Of a DNA stretch of 64,000 nt, positions 32,236 to 46,125 are shown piece after piece (the first letter of the stretch is position 1; every line of letters starts with the position of its first letter). The position numbers and the translations under genes are program-made. The DNA is from Thermoanaerobaculia bacterium (GTDB lineage Bacteria; Acidobacteriota; Thermoanaerobaculia; Gp7-AA8). The notes below the pieces were generated by a model that was given only the letters and a program-made list of their open reading frames with translations, was not told where the DNA came from and ran no database searches. The stretch lies in assembly GCA_017883205.1 (NCBI GenBank), contig JADGNZ010000029.1, positions 1-64,000 on the forward strand, read 5' to 3'.

Positions 32236-32243
32236 GTCTGTGC

Positions 32244-32305
32244 CTCACTGCATTCACCGAGTTGCGGAACGGTCATCAGTAGCCGCGATAGAAGATGAGG
32301 ATGTC
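32244..32305 (-). pseudogene. truncated redoxin relic 1, carrying the TGA active-site codon
   Basis: Minus-strand sequence matching the core of the redoxin gene at 34835-35599. It reads ILIFYRGY, then TGA (32278-32276, in place of Trp), TGA (32275-32273, at the selenocysteine position) and PFRNS. It then jumps straight to the bases found after the intact gene's stop (GGTGAATGCAGTGA). The middle and C-terminal part is deleted. It lies between the hydrolase stop and the next plus-strand gene. Confidence 0.7.
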
Positions 32306-32332
32306 TCTGGGGTCCGGTTCTGAATTGCGGCG

Positions 32333-32347: not shown

Positions 32348-33667
32348 ATGTCTCCGCAGCTCGTTTTTCTTACGCTCTTTCTCGGTTTGATCTCCGGACG
32401 AAACGACGTCGATTTGCAGGCGGGACCGGAGATCAAGTCCATTCGCATCCTGCTTGACGGCCGTCAGATTGCTGCGATGAAAGAGCCGCCGTGGCATGCG
32501 ACGGTCGATTTCGGCCCCTCCATCGTTCCCGGCGAACTGGCCGCTGCCGGCTACGACGCACAGGGAAACGAGGTGGTGCGCGTCGCGCAAACGGTCAATC
32601 TGCCGCGGCCTGAGGCGGAGCTCGTGATCGCACTACAGAACGACGCAAGCGGGACGCCGCGATCGGCCGCGCTGCGATGGGAGCATCTGCTCGGGGCGAA
32701 GCCGGTCAAAACGTCGCTTGCCATCGACGGCAAGGAGATTCCGCTCGACAGCACGAGCAGTGCGCGCCTGCCGCGGCTGGACATGAATCACCCGCACGTG
32801 ATCGCCGCCGAGATGAAATTCGACGACGGATTCAGCATGCGACGGGAGCTCATCGCCGGTGGGGCAATCAGCTACACGGCCGATACGCAGTTGACGCCGG
32901 TCGGTGTCAGACAGGCAACCGCGGCGCCGCCGGCCGATACCGGCGATTGCTTCACCAGCGCCGGATCGCCGGTACGCATTGCGGCGATCGAGAAAAGTCC
33001 TGCACTCGTCGTCGTCGTACTCGATCCTGATCCGCAGGAAGCCATCGGGGCGCTCAGCCCGGCGACGAATCCGTCGATGTACTTGAGTGGTAGAAATGAC
33101 GTGCGCCACCTGATCCCGCTGGAGTCCGGCACACGGATGCGCATTCTGTGGCCCTTCGCGAAGCAGCACAAGACGACGAGCAACGCCTCAGCGTTCCTGT
33201 TTCCGCGGTCGAACGATGTCGAGGCGAGCGAAGGCGGCCTGGTGTGGCTGCTCACGCGAACGTACGGCGAGCGAGTCGATGAATCCGAGCCGCGCCGGAT
33301 CGCCGACGCTGTCGGCGTTGCCGGTCTCGAAGCCATTACCAGTGCGAACCGCCGCGCGGTCGTTCTCGCGCTGAGCCGCTTCGAAGACAAAAGTACGCAC
33401 GATGCCGCCTCCATCCGCAACTATCTCGCCTCGATCGGTGTGCCGCTTTTCGTCTGGTCGTTCACCGGGCCGCGGCCGGAACTGCGCGATACCTGGGGAG
33501 AGGTCGACGATGTCTCGTCGCACGGAAAACTGAAGGTTGCCGCCGCCCGTCTTCGCGCGGAGCTCGCGTCGCAGCACGTGGCCTGGATCGCCGCCGATCC
33601 CGTAGCCGCGCTGCGGATCACTCCCACGGGACGCTGCGGAATCACGCCGATGGCCGCGGCACGGTAG
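32348..33667 (+). CDS. exported protein resembling VWFA-related proteins
   Basis: 439 residues. Short hydrophobic N-terminus (MSPQLVFLTLFLGLISG), then beta-rich segments typical of acidobacterial VWFA-related proteins (IKSIRILLDGRQIAAM, WHATVDFGPSIVPGEL). The C-terminal half shows alternating strands and helices like a VWA fold (SPALVVVVLDPDPQEA, RRAVVLALSRFEDKS, GVPLFVWSFTG). A clear DxSxS metal site is not seen. Function unknown. It is flanked on both sides by relics of the redoxin gene. Confidence 0.65.
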   Translation: MSPQLVFLTLFLGLISGRNDVDLQAGPEIKSIRILLDGRQIAAMKEPPWHATVDFGPSIVPGELAAAGYDAQGNEVVRVAQTVNLPRPEAELVIALQNDASGTPRSAALRWEHLLGAKPVKTSLAIDGKEIPLDSTSSARLPRLDMNHPHVIAAEMKFDDGFSMRRELIAGGAISYTADTQLTPVGVRQATAAPPADTGDCFTSAGSPVRIAAIEKSPALVVVVLDPDPQEAIGALSPATNPSMYLSGRNDVRHLIPLESGTRMRILWPFAKQHKTTSNASAFLFPRSNDVEASEGGLVWLLTRTYGERVDESEPRRIADAVGVAGLEAITSANRRAVVLALSRFEDKSTHDAASIRNYLASIGVPLFVWSFTGPRPELRDTWGEVDDVSSHGKLKVAAARLRAELASQHVAWIAADPVAALRITPTGRCGITPMAAAR

Positions 33668-34834: not shown

Positions 34835-35599
34835 TCACCGAAGGCTGCGTGCTGCTTCCAGCATCTGCTCCGGCCGCGCGCGGATGCGGAGATCTTCGGT
34901 CAGGTTGCGCCAGCGCACGATGCTGTTGCGGTCGACCAGGAACTCGGCGGGCCGCGCGATGTCGTGTCCACCCGGGCTCTCTCCTTTGTGCAGGAGGTCG
35001 TACCGCCGGATGGTCTCGGTGTCGGGATCGGAGAGAAGCGGAAAGGTGTAGCCGGTTTTCTTCACGAGATCGCGCGACTCCTCGGGCGTGTCGACGCTGA
35101 TCGCAACCGGTTGGATGCCGGCAGCGCGGAACTCGGCGAGATGATTTTCAATACCCCGTAACTCGGAGTTGCAGAACGGTCACCAGTAGCCGCGGTAGAA
35201 GATGAGGATGACGCCCTTCGTCGCCGGCTCGGCCAGCAGTCCTGCGAGCGCCACCGGCTTTCGATGGATATCGAGCAGGACGAAATCGGGCGCCTTGCTG
35301 CCGATCGCCGGCGCGTGCGAGGAAGCAGGAAGCCACTTCGCGCCGATGAATATGTCCCAGCAGAAGAGGACGCAGAGGAGTACTCCGAAGACAGTCGCGA
35401 TCCACACGCCGGTCCGTCGTCCCGTTGCGCGACGAAGTCCGATCACTAACAGCGCGATGGCGACGGCGAAGAGAACCAGATTTACCCACGGCACATCGCG
35501 CGTGATCGGAAAACGGGCAAAGAAGACAAAGTAGCTGATGAACGCGGCGACGCTGAGCGCAAAACCGGACCAGAGCTGCCAGTTGAAGCGGCGGGGCAT
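34835..35599 (-). CDS. membrane-anchored redoxin with in-frame TGA, probable selenoprotein
   Basis: A continuous 254-residue product if the TGA at 35182-35180 is read as selenocysteine (Sec140). Residues 1-90 hold three membrane helices (SGFALSVAAFISYFVFF, LVLFAVAIALLVIGL, ATVFGVLLCVLFCWDIF). A thioredoxin-fold AhpC/TSA-like redoxin domain follows: GSKAPDFVLLD, then GVILIFYRGYW-U-PFCNSELRG, VAISVDTPEESRDLVKK, FPLLSDPD, PAEFLVDRNSIVRWRN. In relatives the first residue of the motif is Cys (WCPFC), so TGA sits exactly on the peroxidatic position, giving a UxxC site, and the frame remains conserved and open to the true stop. A short hairpin (35179-35156) follows the TGA. It needs a selenocysteine machinery elsewhere. 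The leaderless -10 TATGAT lies 6 nt before the ATG. Confidence 0.82.
35156..35179 (-). promoter_or_regulatory. candidate bacterial SECIS hairpin after the TGA
   Basis: Directly after the TGA, CCGT (35179-35176) can pair with ACGG (35159-35156) and AACT (35170-35167) with AGTT (35163-35160), loop CCG, with a TCTGC bulge on one side. Position fits a bacterial SECIS element; the fold is weak and unproven. Confidence 0.35.
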
Positions 35600-39600: not shown

Positions 39601-39827
39601 CGATTCAACGATGCGGATCGATGAATCGACGATTCACATTGTCAATCTGCCGATGCGGAGCGATGAATCGACACTGCGTATCATCGATCCGACAATGTGG
39701 AGCCATGATCGTCACTGCGCATCATCGATATGACGATCCGCATCATCGAAAGGACAATGCACATCGTCGATCTGACGATACGCAGCCACGATTGACGATG
39801 CGCATCAAAGATCGTTCGATGCGCCTA
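39601..39827. repeat. degenerate 21-bp repeats at the left edge of array 2
   Basis: Words such as GACGATGCGGATCGATGAATC recur about every 21 bp with many substitutions, in both orientations because the word is nearly self-complementary. Grades into the well-conserved part. Confidence 0.6.
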
Positions 39828-40122
39828 GAAGATCGTTCGCAACGACTAGAAGACCATTCGCAACGCGTAGAAGGTCGTTTGCAACGACTAGAAGACCCTT
39901 CGCATCGCGTAGAAGACCCTTCGCAACGCGTAGAAGACCCTTCGCATCGCGTAGAAGACCCTTCGCAACGCGTAGAAGGTCCTTCGCAACGCGTAGAAGA
40001 CCCTTCGCAACGCGTAGAAGACCCTTCGCAACGCGTAGAAGACCCCTTCGCAACGCGTAGAAGGTCGTTTGCAGCGACTGGAAGGCCGTTCGCAACGCCT
40101 GGAAGGTCGTTCGCTGCGCCTG
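39828..40122. repeat. 14-unit 21-bp tandem array (array 2)
   Basis: Units such as GAAGACCCTTCGCAACGCGTA repeat 14 times; one unit near 40045 has an extra C, so the array is 295 bp. On the plus strand one frame reads RVEDPSQ heptads up to that base and is then shifted. The array ends 231 nt before the alpha-2-macroglobulin start, close to the 220-nt gap of array 1. Confidence 0.85.
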
Positions 40123-40353
40123 GGAAGATCGTTCCCTGCCCTCGCCACAATCCCGCCACATTCCTGGTGTTGGTTCTCCTCATCTGACCACGCGCACGTC
40201 ACATCGGGGCGTCATATTGGTCGCGAAGGATCGAAGGAGATGGCGATGGGGAGCAGCGACACGACCAACACGGAGTACGAACCGCGGGTCCCGAGGGGAC
40301 CAGTGAATTCCGCGTCACAAAACGGCAACGCCTCTCGTGCTAACCTCCGCCGC

Positions 40354-43300
40354 ATGAAGCGAGCGCTACTTGGGGCCGTCCTTTTCCTCACTGCTGTCTC
40401 TTCCTTCGCCGCCGACAAAAACCTCACCATCATCAAGGCTGGACCGATTAGCGAAGTAGCCAATCTGGCTGAGGCGAATGAGATTCGCGTCGTGTTCAGC
40501 GAGCCGATGGTTGTCGTCGGCAAGATTCCGAAGGCTCTCGACGTGCCGTGGTTTCACGTCGAGCCGGCGATCAACGGCTCATTCCGGTGGTCGGGAACGA
40601 CGACGCTGATCTTCACGCCCGATCCGAAGACGCCGCTGCCGTTCGCGACGAAGTACGACGTCACGATCGACGCCGCGGCGAAAGCGGTCAGCGGAAAGAC
40701 GCTCGGCAAGCCGTATCACTTCTCGTTCACCACGCCGACGATCCAGCTTCTGCGCACCGACTGGTACCGCAAAGGCGGCAAGTACGACGGCGCGGTCGTG
40801 ATCGCGCTCTGGTTCAATCAGCCGGTCGATGGTGCAACGCTCGGCTCGCACCTGGTGCTCCGCACCGTCGCACATGAATTCAAAGCACCCCCGCTTCCGG
40901 CGCGCGACCGGCTGGCGAAGCTCGAGCCGCCGCAGCCCGCTGCGTTCGACGCGAAGATAGCGAAGGCGCAGCAGGCCGCGGCAAGCGACGGACAGCCGGT
41001 GCTCTCCTTCCTTGCGACGGAGTGGGATAAGAAACACTTCAAGCCGGTGCCGGAGATGGTCATCGTCGAGACGAAACCGGGCGTGCCGCCTGACACGAAC
41101 CTGCAGATCTTCGTCGACGACAAGCTGGCAAAGAACGCGAACAGCGTTGCCAGCGGGCATCCGCAAACCTTCACCATCGAGCTGGGCCCGGCGTTCTTCA
41201 TCGAGAAGGCGGAGTGCCTGGCGGAGTGCGGCCCCGAGTATTACAACCCGATCTCCTTCCGCGTGAACGGCGGCGTGCCGTTCGTGAACTTCAAGAAAGC
41301 CGTCAGCGTCATCGACGTCACCGATCCGGCGCACGAGTTGCCGGTCACGCCGTCCGAGCCGAAGCGCGAAGTCGATCCGAGCGCCGCTCCCGCGACGCAG
41401 TACAGCCTCGACGAGCTCGGATACTCCGTGATCCCTGCGCACACATACGCGGTCCGCGTCGATCCTTCGCTCAAGTCGGAGAGCGGCCAGACGCTCGGCT
41501 ACACGTGGATGGCCGTCGTCGAGTACTGGCACAAAGCGGCCTACATCAGCTTCGGAGATGGGCACGGTGTGTGGGAGTCGAGCGGCGGCCCGCTGCTGCC
41601 CTTCCACGGCCGGAACTTCAAGAATGTCACGCAGTGGATGACACCGTTGTCACTCGACAAGCTCGTCCCGACGATCGTCGATCTGCAGAAAGAGGGCTTC
41701 AAGAAAACGCCCGAAACCGGCGGCGCCCAGCGCAATCTCGCGCCCGTCGCGGACAAGCTGCAGTCGTACGGCCTCAATCTCAAGTCCGCACTGTCATCGA
41801 TCGGCAACGGCATCGTCTGGGCCGTCATCAAGCCGGGCGACCCGATCGCGAAGTCGAAGACGTATTCCGAGGACACTGCTGGAACGATCGTGCAGGTGAC
41901 AAACCTCGGCATCACCGTAAAGGACTCGCCGCAGAACACCCTCGTCCTCGTCACGCGGCTCGACAACGCCGCGCCGGTGGCAGGAGCGAAGGTGTCGATC
42001 CGGACGATCGAGAACAAAGTCTTCTGGACCGGGACCACCGACGCGAACGGCATCGCCATCGCGCCGAATACCGATCTCCGCGTGGAGCGGAACAAGAAGA
42101 ACGAGAAAGGCGAGGAAGTCCCTGTCGAGTCGTGGGAAGCATTCGGCCTGCACTTCGTGGTGACCGCCGAGAAAGACGGCGATAGCGCGTACGCCTCGAG
42201 CGACTGGAACGACGGCATCACGCCGTGGGAGTTCGGACTCAACTTCGACCTCGATGAAGCGAAGCCGCTTCTGCGCGGTACGACGTTCACTGACCGCGGT
42301 GTCTACAAGCCGGGCGAAGAAGTACACGCCAAGATCGTGCTTCGCAGCGACACACCGACCGGCATGCAGCTCCTGCCGGCCGGCACCGACGTCGACATCG
42401 TCGTCACCGACGCGCACGACAAAGAGGTCGACAAGCGCACGGTCAAGTTGAATGACTGGAGCAGCTCGGAGTGGGTGTGGACCGTGCCCGCCGACGGCGT
42501 CCTCGGCGACTACGGCATCAAAGCGTCGGTCAAATCGCAGCGCCTGATGACGTTCGGCAGTTTCCTGGTTGCTGCGTACCGCCGTCCGGAGTTCCGCGTC
42601 GATGTAACACTCAAGGGAGCGCCTCCGATCGCCGGGACGAAACTGAACGGCACGATCATCGGCAAGTATCTCTTCGGCGGCGCGATGGCATCGCGACCGG
42701 TGAAGTGGACGTATTCGAAGGTCCCTGTTTACGACGTTCCATCTGCGATCCGCGAGCGGTTCCAGGAAGGGCAGTGGGAGTTCCTCGGCGAAGACCCCGA
42801 GCAACGCCGGGAAGGCGAAACGATCAACACAATGGAGCCGAAGCTCGACGCCAAGGGTGAATTGAAACTGACGCTCGATACCGACATCGCCGCGGGCGTG
42901 CCGTGGAGCTACGTGCTCGAAGGCAACGTGACCGACGTCTCGCGCCAGCAGCTCGCCAACCGCACGGCGTTCCGCGTTCATCCGGCGCCGTGGTACATCG
43001 GCGTGAAGTCGCCGAACTACTTCTCCGACGCTACGAAGGGGCTCGACACCGCCATCGTCGCTGCCGCGCTCGATGGCACGGCAACGGCCGGTGTCTCCGT
43101 CAGCGTCGACCTTCATCGCATCCAGTGGAACTCCGTGCGCGAGGCTGCCGGCAATGGCTTCTACAACTGGCAAACGGAGCGCAAAGAGCTTCCCGCCGGA
43201 CATTGGGATGTGACCACGCAGGCGACGGCTGCCCCGCTGCACATTCCGCTCGGCGAAGGCGGCGAATATCTCATCATCGCAACTGCAAAGGATGCCGAGG

Positions 43301-46125
43301 GCCGCTCGACGACGACACGCACCTGGTTCTACGCGGTCGGTGGCGGCTACACGGCATGGGCGCGCGCGGACAGCAACCGCATCGAGCTCGTGCCGGAGAA
43401 GAAGACGTACAAGCCCGGCGAAACGGCGCGGATCATGGTGAAGTCGCCGTGGGAGCACGCAACGGCGCTGCTCACGACCGAGCGCGAAGGCGTGCGCACC
43501 TGGAAGACGTTCGAGCTGACCTCGACGCAGACGACCGTCTCCGTGCCGATCACCGAGAAAGACATTCCGAACCTTTTCGTCGCAGTAACGTTGCTCAAAG
43601 GCCGTACGAAGGATGGCATCGAGGACGAGAGCGATCCCGGCAAGCCCGCGTTCCGCCTCGGCTACACAGCGCTGAGCGTCGTTGACGCAGCGAAGCGTTT
43701 GAAGGTCGCGGTCAAAGCAAATAGCGTCGAGTATCGCCCGGCATCGAAGGCGCGCATCGAAGTCGATGTGCATGACGCCGCCGGCAAGCCGACGCAATCC
43801 GAAGTGACGTTGTGGGCCGTCGATTACGGCGTCCTTTCGCTGACCGCGTACGAAACGCCTGACGTGCTCCAGTCGATCTACCTCGAAAAATCGCTGCAAG
43901 TCATCAACTTCGATTCGCGCCAGAAGATCGTCAGCCGCCGCGTGCTGACGCCGAAGGGCGAGACGCAGGGTGGCGGCGGCGGCAAGGACGCCGGACCGGG
44001 CGTGATGCGCAAAGACTTCCGCGTGCTCGCGTTCTGGGTCGGCTCCGTCGTCACGGACGCGAAGGGTCACGCGAAGACGGATGTCACGCTCCCCGAGTCG
44101 CTGACGACGTATCGCATCATGGCCGTCGCCGGCGACCGCGGCTCGCGCTTCGGTTGGGCGCAGAACGAGATCCGCATCAACAAGCCGGTGCTGCTGACAC
44201 CGACGTGGCCACGCTTCCTCGCCGTCGGCGACAAGGCGTTCTTCGGCGGCGTCGTGCACTCGCAGCTCAAGCAGCCGGGCAAGGCGACGGTAACGATCAA
44301 GTCGCTCGATCCGTCGATCGTCGAATTCACGCAGCCAACGTCGCAGACAATTGACATCGCCGCGGAAGGTTCTGCCGAGGTGCGGTTCAACGGGTCGGCG
44401 AAAGCGGTCGGCAGCGCAAGACTGCAGGTGACCGTTTCGCTCAACAAGGAGACCGACGCGTTCGAAGACTCGCTGCCGGTGCGCATCCTCACGCCGTCCG
44501 AGACCGTCGCCGCGTACGGCGAGGCCAAGCCCGACGCGAAGGAGACGCTGGCGGTTCCGAAGGATGTCGTGCCGTCATCCGGCGGACTGCACGTCGAGCT
44601 TTCGTCGACGGCGATGGTCGGCTTGGCCGAGGGCGCCGCGTATCTTGTCGATTATCCGTACGGCTGCGCGGAACAGCGCTCGTCCGGCGCCATGGCTCTC
44701 ATGCTGTCCTCCGACCTCGGCGACGCATTCGCGCTTCCCGGCATCGACCCGAAGAAGGGCCGCACCATCGCGCAAGCGACGATCAATGAGCTCAACAATT
44801 TCCAGTGCGGCGACGGTGGCTTCGCGTTCTGGGCAGGCGAGTGCTACACCGAATCGCCGTACATGACCGCGACCGTTCTGCACGTGATGCAGCGCGGCGA
44901 GAAGTTGAAGTACGACGTCAACAAAGACGTGACGAAGCGCGGGTATGACTACCTCGACGCCAAGCTCAAGGAACCGCGTCCGACGAACGAGGGCTGGTGG
45001 CCGGCGTACACGGCATGGCAGGCCTTCGCGGTCAAGGTTTTGACCGAGGGCGGTCGGAACGAAGATAGCCACATCACGCGGCTCTACTCATATGTCGATC
45101 GGATGCCGTTGTTCGGCATCGCGTATCTCACCGACGCCATGCTGGCGAAGGGAGAGAAGGGTCCGCGCGTCGACGAGCTCACGCGCCGCATCACCAACGG
45201 CATCCTGCCCGAGGGCGGCAGCGCGCACGTCGAAGAGCTGTCCGATCCCTACCTTCTTTATTACTGGAGCTCGAGCGTTCGCTCTACCGCCATCGCCCTC
45301 GGCACTCTCACCCGCCACGGCGAGAGCGAGCAGATGGTCAAGCAGATGGTGCGCTGGCTGATGAAAGTGCGCCGTCAGGGACGTTGGGGCAACACGCAGG
45401 AAAACATCTGGGCGATGGAGTCGCTCGTCGACTACTACCGCAAGTACGAGAGCGAGACGCCGGACTTCACCGCAGTCGTGAAGATCGGCGCGGACACGAT
45501 CGCCAACGATTCATTCAAAGGCCGCAGCACCGAGGCGAAGAATCACGACATCCCGATGCAGCAGCTCATGGCGCGGCCGGCGGGAGACACGCCGGTGACG
45601 TTCGATCGTCAAGGTACAGGCACGCTCTTCTACCTGATGCGTCTGCGCTACACGCCGGTTGGTCTCATGCACGACGCGCTCAATCAGGGTTTCAGCGTCG
45701 AGCGGAAGTACTCGCTGAAGACATTCAAGGCTGGCGATTTGATCAAGGTCACGCTACGCATCCGCAACACGAAGGAGCGGCGCTTCGTGGCGGTGATCGA
45801 TCCGATTCCCGCGGGTACGGAGCCGGTGGAGTCGTGGTTCGCCACGACCGCGAGCGATCTGGCCGCGGAGCAAAGTAAGAACGATACGCAGGGCGATGAC
45901 TGGATGTCGTGGTGGAAACACGGCGGCTTCGATCACGTCGAGCGTCACGATGACCGCGTCAACCTCTTCGCCACGCGCCTCGGCGAAGGGATGCACGAGT
46001 TCACGTACATGGTTCGCGCCACGACTGCCGGCACGTTCATCACCGCGCCGACGCATGCCGAGGAGATGTACGAGCCCGAAGTCTTCGGGAGAACGGCCAG
46101 CGAGGTCATCGAGGTCAAACCGTGA
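40354..46125 (+). CDS. bacterial alpha-2-macroglobulin with thioester motif
   Basis: 1,923 residues, longer than E. coli YfhM (~1,650). Signal peptide MKRALLGAVLFLTAVSSFAA without a lipobox Cys, so soluble in the periplasm or released. The N-terminal part carries Big_5-like and macroglobulin (MG) domains (RGVYKPGEEVHAKIVLR is an MG signature). The bait/thioester region holds CAEQ in YPYGCAEQRSS near residue 1438, which would form the covalent protease-trapping thioester. It is partnered by pbpC, one base downstream: the known pair in which A2M shields the wall where PbpC repairs it. The ATG 40354 is chosen at the signal peptide; the frame is open into array 2 but that part is repeat. Confidence 0.92.
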   Translation: MKRALLGAVLFLTAVSSFAADKNLTIIKAGPISEVANLAEANEIRVVFSEPMVVVGKIPKALDVPWFHVEPAINGSFRWSGTTTLIFTPDPKTPLPFATKYDVTIDAAAKAVSGKTLGKPYHFSFTTPTIQLLRTDWYRKGGKYDGAVVIALWFNQPVDGATLGSHLVLRTVAHEFKAPPLPARDRLAKLEPPQPAAFDAKIAKAQQAAASDGQPVLSFLATEWDKKHFKPVPEMVIVETKPGVPPDTNLQIFVDDKLAKNANSVASGHPQTFTIELGPAFFIEKAECLAECGPEYYNPISFRVNGGVPFVNFKKAVSVIDVTDPAHELPVTPSEPKREVDPSAAPATQYSLDELGYSVIPAHTYAVRVDPSLKSESGQTLGYTWMAVVEYWHKAAYISFGDGHGVWESSGGPLLPFHGRNFKNVTQWMTPLSLDKLVPTIVDLQKEGFKKTPETGGAQRNLAPVADKLQSYGLNLKSALSSIGNGIVWAVIKPGDPIAKSKTYSEDTAGTIVQVTNLGITVKDSPQNTLVLVTRLDNAAPVAGAKVSIRTIENKVFWTGTTDANGIAIAPNTDLRVERNKKNEKGEEVPVESWEAFGLHFVVTAEKDGDSAYASSDWNDGITPWEFGLNFDLDEAKPLLRGTTFTDRGVYKPGEEVHAKIVLRSDTPTGMQLLPAGTDVDIVVTDAHDKEVDKRTVKLNDWSSSEWVWTVPADGVLGDYGIKASVKSQRLMTFGSFLVAAYRRPEFRVDVTLKGAPPIAGTKLNGTIIGKYLFGGAMASRPVKWTYSKVPVYDVPSAIRERFQEGQWEFLGEDPEQRREGETINTMEPKLDAKGELKLTLDTDIAAGVPWSYVLEGNVTDVSRQQLANRTAFRVHPAPWYIGVKSPNYFSDATKGLDTAIVAAALDGTATAGVSVSVDLHRIQWNSVREAAGNGFYNWQTERKELPAGHWDVTTQATAAPLHIPLGEGGEYLIIATAKDAEGRSTTTRTWFYAVGGGYTAWARADSNRIELVPEKKTYKPGETARIMVKSPWEHATALLTTEREGVRTWKTFELTSTQTTVSVPITEKDIPNLFVAVTLLKGRTKDGIEDESDPGKPAFRLGYTALSVVDAAKRLKVAVKANSVEYRPASKARIEVDVHDAAGKPTQSEVTLWAVDYGVLSLTAYETPDVLQSIYLEKSLQVINFDSRQKIVSRRVLTPKGETQGGGGGKDAGPGVMRKDFRVLAFWVGSVVTDAKGHAKTDVTLPESLTTYRIMAVAGDRGSRFGWAQNEIRINKPVLLTPTWPRFLAVGDKAFFGGVVHSQLKQPGKATVTIKSLDPSIVEFTQPTSQTIDIAAEGSAEVRFNGSAKAVGSARLQVTVSLNKETDAFEDSLPVRILTPSETVAAYGEAKPDAKETLAVPKDVVPSSGGLHVELSSTAMVGLAEGAAYLVDYPYGCAEQRSSGAMALMLSSDLGDAFALPGIDPKKGRTIAQATINELNNFQCGDGGFAFWAGECYTESPYMTATVLHVMQRGEKLKYDVNKDVTKRGYDYLDAKLKEPRPTNEGWWPAYTAWQAFAVKVLTEGGRNEDSHITRLYSYVDRMPLFGIAYLTDAMLAKGEKGPRVDELTRRITNGILPEGGSAHVEELSDPYLLYYWSSSVRSTAIALGTLTRHGESEQMVKQMVRWLMKVRRQGRWGNTQENIWAMESLVDYYRKYESETPDFTAVVKIGADTIANDSFKGRSTEAKNHDIPMQQLMARPAGDTPVTFDRQGTGTLFYLMRLRYTPVGLMHDALNQGFSVERKYSLKTFKAGDLIKVTLRIRNTKERRFVAVIDPIPAGTEPVESWFATTASDLAAEQSKNDTQGDDWMSWWKHGGFDHVERHDDRVNLFATRLGEGMHEFTYMVRATTAGTFITAPTHAEEMYEPEVFGRTASEVIEVKP

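Follow-up and report, generated by a model that had tools for sequence, protein, structure and literature searches.

INTRODUCTION

Prx-like thiol:disulfide oxidoreductases with a PF00578 domain and a UxxC or UxxU redox site form a recognised family of selenoproteins (PMC13188914 Table 1, PMC1794560), and Prx-like 1 was described from marine metagenomes (PMC2398784). A UxxC redoxin family protein (PF08534) likewise figures among the listed selenoprotein families (PMC13188914, PMC9312934), and a 2006 count for the Acidobacteria arrived at four selenoproteins belonging to three families (PMC1794560). The review text mentions no transmembrane form of the Prx-like or redoxin selenoproteins (PMC13188914). 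A preliminary description of a 64,000-nucleotide stretch of acidobacterial DNA (hereafter the window) proposed a membrane-anchored redoxin with selenocysteine (Sec) at the first position of its active site, noting that Sec-containing Prx-like proteins exist, in agreement with the above literature. Here, we computed the open frame through the UGA codon, its conservation, the SECIS hairpin, the Sec machinery, the domain and the membrane anchor of this gene, and conclude with high confidence that it encodes a selenoprotein in which UGA 140 is read as Sec; this confidence pertains to the selenoprotein reading and not to the substrate.

RESULTS AND DISCUSSION

The redoxin frame continues across an in-frame TGA

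The gene and the features that define its reading frame are as follows.

34835..35599, minus strand: complete gene of a membrane-anchored Prx-like UxxC redoxin, in all probability a selenoprotein (254 codons and a TGA stop)
35180..35182, minus strand: in-frame TGA, codon 140, very probably read as Sec (conservation, Cys homologues, machinery)
35171..35182, minus strand: UPFC (UxxC) redox motif, codons 140–143 (position 140 and C143 invariant in 51/51 relatives)
34838..35305, minus strand: AhpC-TSA/Redoxin (thioredoxin-fold) domain, residues 99–254 (Pfam, fold comparison, AlphaFold)

The frame around codon 140 reads ...ILIFYRGYW-TGA-PFCNSEL... on the minus strand and runs for 114 sense codons beyond the TGA to a normal TGA stop at 34835–34837, precisely as had been claimed. 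An ordinary ORF list splits the gene into 35180–35599 (139 aa) and 34835–35065 (76 aa), the very two false frames that had been predicted. The Pfam match of the read-through protein, in contrast, spans the TGA, with AhpC-TSA (PF00578) at E 3.5e-29 over residues 99–230 (101.7 bits against a gathering cut-off of 26) and a match to Redoxin as well. The openness of the redoxin frame through TGA 140 is far beyond chance.

The gene belongs to a large subfamily

A scan of GTDB genomes with the DNA pattern YRG[YF]W-U-PFCxxEL returned 98 stretches bearing the TGA motif. Of these, 86 are full-length, in that their alignment to the window protein starts no later than residue 25 and reaches at least residue 240, and have 110–147 codons after the TGA; at least 7 of the remaining 12 are truncated by the end of a contig or locus. 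As the pattern itself contains the TGA, these counts show the breadth of the subfamily and not the share of Sec forms within it. Record titles place the matches in Acidobacteriota, Rokubacteria, Verrucomicrobia, Planctomycetes/Phycisphaerae and a few Proteobacteria MAGs; close relatives are found in numerous other uncultured bacteria, chiefly of soil and groundwater, and the host is itself a soil acidobacterium. The redoxin gene is a member of a large subfamily and not a lone oddity, and this coherent set of probable selenoproteins extends over Acidobacteriota, Rokubacteria, Verrucomicrobiota and Planctomycetota, mostly in uncultured MAGs. Gene neighbourhood was dropped as a hint to function, as its context is not conserved: no neighbour recurs, and the largest cluster (9/99 loci) resembles antisense ORFs. 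Separately, redoxins with RSAVWUPPC or RSAVWUPYC, an in-frame TGA and a long C-terminal extension (family f8; L033, L035, L039, L043 and similar loci) recur in one family of the class.

The TGA and the sequence beyond it are under constraint

TGA 140 is kept in orthologues at 73, 61, 60 and 59% identity and occupies the same column in 8/8 aligned orthologues; the orthologue at 60% identity (G008) has an additional TAA within the span counted by the search. Among the matches listed across the phylum, each full-length one at 37% identity or above carries one TGA, including further relatives at 37–55% identity. Against the four closest orthologues, dN/dS is 0.19–0.31 after the TGA and 0.30–0.46 before it. 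Loss of the TGA in close relatives together with lost constraint downstream had been named as what would speak against the Sec reading; instead, the TGA is retained and constraint is stronger downstream than upstream. Codons +1 to +9 after the UGA are synonymously frozen (7/8, as opposed to 23/81 elsewhere; Fisher p = 0.0018), and Leu +7 is TTA in the redoxin gene and all four closest orthologues, a codon that makes up 1.1% of Leu in the genes of the window. In relatives with Cys at the site of codon 140, the surrounding motif is YRGxWCPFC or a close variant, including in two membrane-anchored Cys forms (L038, L191), which bears out the WCPFC given in the preliminary description.

The window also holds a trace of a second copy.

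32241..32317, minus strand: decayed relic of a second redoxin copy, 77 nt (45-nt UGA/SECIS core joined to the 3′ tail of the gene)

The 45-nt core is 93% identical to the redoxin gene and is fused to the tail of that gene, ggtgaatgcagtga; the relic is located immediately past the end of a gene for an alpha/beta hydrolase. G002, a close relative, has its intact redoxin ∼14 bp from this hydrolase, so that the relic is best read as the remains of a partial duplication. As a second functional copy it is ruled out, being a 77-nt remnant in which a Trp codon has become TGA and the second Cys codon CGC. Between the relic and the intact redoxin there are now two genes, one of unknown family and one with a RelA/SpoT domain. 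Beside the relic, the plus strand carries a 439-aa protein (32348–33667) to which Pfam gives no match at E 1e-5. Elsewhere in the window, short tandem repeats that can be seen in several frames (39743–40187) lie just upstream of, and overlap the start of, a very large ORF (40069–46125).

The presence of such a relic, as well as the two ORFs given by ordinary gene callers, would fit UGA 140 being a real stop, with the locus being a pseudogene, a pair of separate proteins or the result of a sequencing error. We consider this barely credible, as the orthologues and about 98 further stretches, spread over several phyla, keep the TGA, the sequence downstream is under purifying selection, and the domain match runs straight across the TGA.

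A conserved SECIS-type hairpin follows the UGA

35153..35169, minus strand: bacterial SECIS hairpin, stem ACUCCG/CGGGGU, loop AGUUA (conservation, compensatory changes)

The bSECIS model (PMC13188914) calls for a loop of 3–9 nt, a stem of 4–16 bp, a G in the first two loop positions, a distance of 16–37 nt from the UGA and an MFE of −7.5 or lower. The hairpin of the redoxin gene conforms to this model, with a 5-nt loop, a 6-bp stem, G as the second loop nucleotide and a loop 16 nt after the UGA, which is the lower limit; its MFE is close to the limit (−7.7 for 38 nt, −7.4 for 33 nt). Compared with dinucleotide shuffles of the single sequence, its stability is not unusual (z about −0.3 to −0.4), and single-sequence folding energy was accordingly dropped as evidence, so that the case for a SECIS is built on conservation. 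An Rfam scan of the 64-kb window gave no match. Relative to alternative synonymous codings of this peptide, the hairpin stands out (p = 0.006).

Among 11 sequences, comprising family members and paralogues from few independent lineages, 93.5% of cells pair and double-sided changes occur in 6/7 pairs. Across 47 orthologues, 95.7% pairing is observed, with 25 double-changed cells as opposed to 3.4 expected by shuffling. The clearest compensation is between ACUCCG/CGG[A/G]GU and ACCUCG/CGAGGU, where TCC (Ser) is replaced by CTC (Leu) and CGG by CGA; this Ser to Leu change with its compensated stem pair is found in one acidobacterial branch. At least three hairpin types occur among the orthologues (L066–L161), with loops AGUU[A/G] at +17, GGU at +25 and GGNC at +25, and the type follows the protein tree (a quick FastTree run, some deep nodes of which are weak), each mostly within one clade. 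The subfamily thus offers a natural test set for constraint by RNA structure versus protein sequence inside a coding region.

The host genome encodes the selenocysteine machinery

The preliminary description had proposed a search of the genome for selA, selB, selD and tRNA-Sec, and all four are present in the host assembly (6.37 Mb, 105 contigs, 99.7% complete): selA scores 477 bits, selB 346 bits and selD 367 bits, and the tRNA-Sec reaches 71.4 bits, above the Rfam cut-off, with anticodon tca by ARAGORN. The selD gene carries an in-frame TGA of its own (L057, G000:C35:91437-92372). Other in-frame TGA genes of the genome are a secreted UxxC redoxin with YRGYWUAYC (L010, G000:C60:626-1072), a redoxin with FTGGU (L011, G000:C41:2173-2664) and a Bcp-like gene with TPGU (L014, G000:C26:70467-70781). 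The host organism seems to have several selenoproteins.

Within the class, tRNA-Sec scores are bimodal, at 59 bits or above or at 55 bits or below. Matches in the lower group resemble tRNA-Ser and none was counted as tRNA-Sec; three such matches of the host genome are called tRNA-Ser by ARAGORN. selA is found in 22/22 genomes of the class checked, including all 12 that lack a clear tRNA-Sec, which makes assembly gaps the likely reason for the missing tRNA. With selA in all of them, the Sec trait does not discriminate within the class and is therefore uninformative about the TGA gene.

The Cys found at this site in homologues would also suit a selenium-independent reading, in which a reassigned tRNA decodes UGA 140 as Cys or Trp. 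The full Sec system of the genome and the conserved SECIS-type hairpin argue against such a reading, as does the use of UGA as an ordinary stop as well, including at the end of the redoxin gene itself, and we regard it as very improbable. The Sec reading of TGA 140 that had been put forward, giving a UxxC site, is thereby supported by the machinery, the Cys homologues, the SECIS-type hairpin and the retention of the TGA. At the ribosome, UGA 140 would be decoded as Sec because the SECIS hairpin follows it and SelB, carrying Sec-tRNA-Sec, would act there.

A three-helix anchor precedes a peroxiredoxin-type fold

35525..35581, minus strand: predicted transmembrane helix 1, residues 7–25 (AlphaFold and hydropathy)
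35429..35488, minus strand: predicted transmembrane helix 2, residues 38–57 (AlphaFold and hydropathy); the helix 2–3 loop is rich in Lys/Arg
35336..35413, minus strand: predicted transmembrane helix 3, residues 63–88 (AlphaFold and hydropathy)

The AlphaFold model, computed with 51 relatives (pLDDT 95.8, pTM 0.89), shows three helices followed by a peroxiredoxin-type thioredoxin fold, and hydropathy gives three hydrophobic segments in 50/51 relatives, in agreement with the three-helix membrane anchor that had been claimed. Lys and Arg are placed mostly in the N-terminus and the helix 2–3 loop in 43/50 relatives, though not in all, a distribution from which the positive-inside rule predicts an extracytoplasmic redoxin domain; the domain is thus probably periplasmic, in an N-in/C-out arrangement. 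The nearest solved folds are those of the peroxiredoxins AhpE and Bcp (VIA-align Z about 24.5, rmsd 1.5–1.9).

The active site suggests a thiol:disulfide-reductase-type role

In a profile alignment to AhpE, C143 falls on the peroxidatic Cys, U140 on the Thr and R136 on the Pro of PxxxTxxC, so that C143 is all that is kept of the PxxxT/SxxC motif of canonical peroxiredoxins. The conserved Arg of AhpE aligns with P217 (Pro in 47/51 relatives), although the neighbouring R216 is kept in 46/51 and a one-residue shift could restore the Arg. In a profile alignment to ResA, W139-U140-P-F-C143 falls on WCxxC. Judged from these alignments, the active site looks more like that of a thiol:disulfide oxidoreductase, set on a peroxiredoxin-like fold, and it is on account of this likeness that we prefer a role of the thiol:disulfide-reductase type, exerted at the surface of the membrane, to which we give about an even chance. 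The redox centre would then be U140-P-F-C143, in which the Sec selenolate would attack the substrate, C143 would resolve the Sec via a selenenylsulfide, and a periplasmic thiol donor would reduce the latter; sidedness, catalytic order, substrate and reductant are what we infer for this redoxin.

The same selenoprotein may instead be mainly a membrane-tethered peroxidase whose peroxidatic residue would be U140 or C143 and whose substrate would be H2O2 or lipid hydroperoxides. Such a role would agree with the AhpE/Bcp type of the nearest folds, the annotation of the Cys relatives as "peroxiredoxin-like family protein" and the position of C143, whereas the loss of PxxxTxxC and the displacement of the Prx Arg (unless shifted onto R216) are at odds with it, and UxxC together with a Pro conserved at the P217 site is of the thiol:disulfide type; we hold the peroxidase role as a tentative, less favoured possibility. 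It is unlikely that the subfamily as a whole constitutes a widespread, periplasmic, three-helix-anchored selenoperoxidase directed against membrane lipid hydroperoxides in uncultured bacteria. If true, this would represent a bacterial functional counterpart of GPX4 that was missed since annotation cuts at the UGA.

Comparison with known systems

ResA is anchored by one helix. Like ResA (PDB 3c71, 1st9), the window protein would be a membrane-tethered thiol oxidoreductase, with WUPFC aligned to WCxxC, the two differing in the Cys of ResA as opposed to the probable Sec of the window protein. The score against the ResA model (NCBIfam PRK03147) is 53.4 bits, below the cut-off of 170, and that against the SelL-related redox protein (NF040769), a model matched by 51/51 relatives at E < 0.001, is 47.7 bits, below the cut-off of 120. 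The NCBIfam search returned no model above its cut-off for the window protein, and automatic annotation therefore probably truncates it. With AhpE and PrxQ/Bcp (PDB 4x0x, 1xxu, 3hjp) the protein shares the fold over 150–156 residues, but PxxxTxxC is absent, the Prx Arg is out of place in the profile alignment, and a membrane anchor and UxxC are present. Cys-containing peroxiredoxin-like proteins (WP_058758872.1, WP_278333090.1) are ∼30–34% identical over the redoxin domain and carry YRGxWCPFC or YRGxWCPYC, in which Cys replaces Sec. None of the plasmid records covers 80% of the window protein, and hence none matches the anchor as well.

The Prx-like PF00578 selenoproteins come closest in kind, sharing PF00578, UxxC with Sec first, a bacterial SECIS and Cys homologues, and differ by description in that the window protein has a three-helix N-terminal anchor. 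The PF08534 redoxin selenoprotein shares the Redoxin match and UxxC and is set apart, again by description, by a text that mentions no anchor; the accessions listed for it may well be close relatives of the window protein. The literature searched yielded nothing specific on an anchored Sec redoxin, and the listed representatives, some of which may already fall within the anchored subfamily, were compared by description. On that basis, the UxxC Prx-like kind of selenoprotein is already known, and the novelty of this locus lies at the low end, in a three-helix anchored variant that is apparently new.
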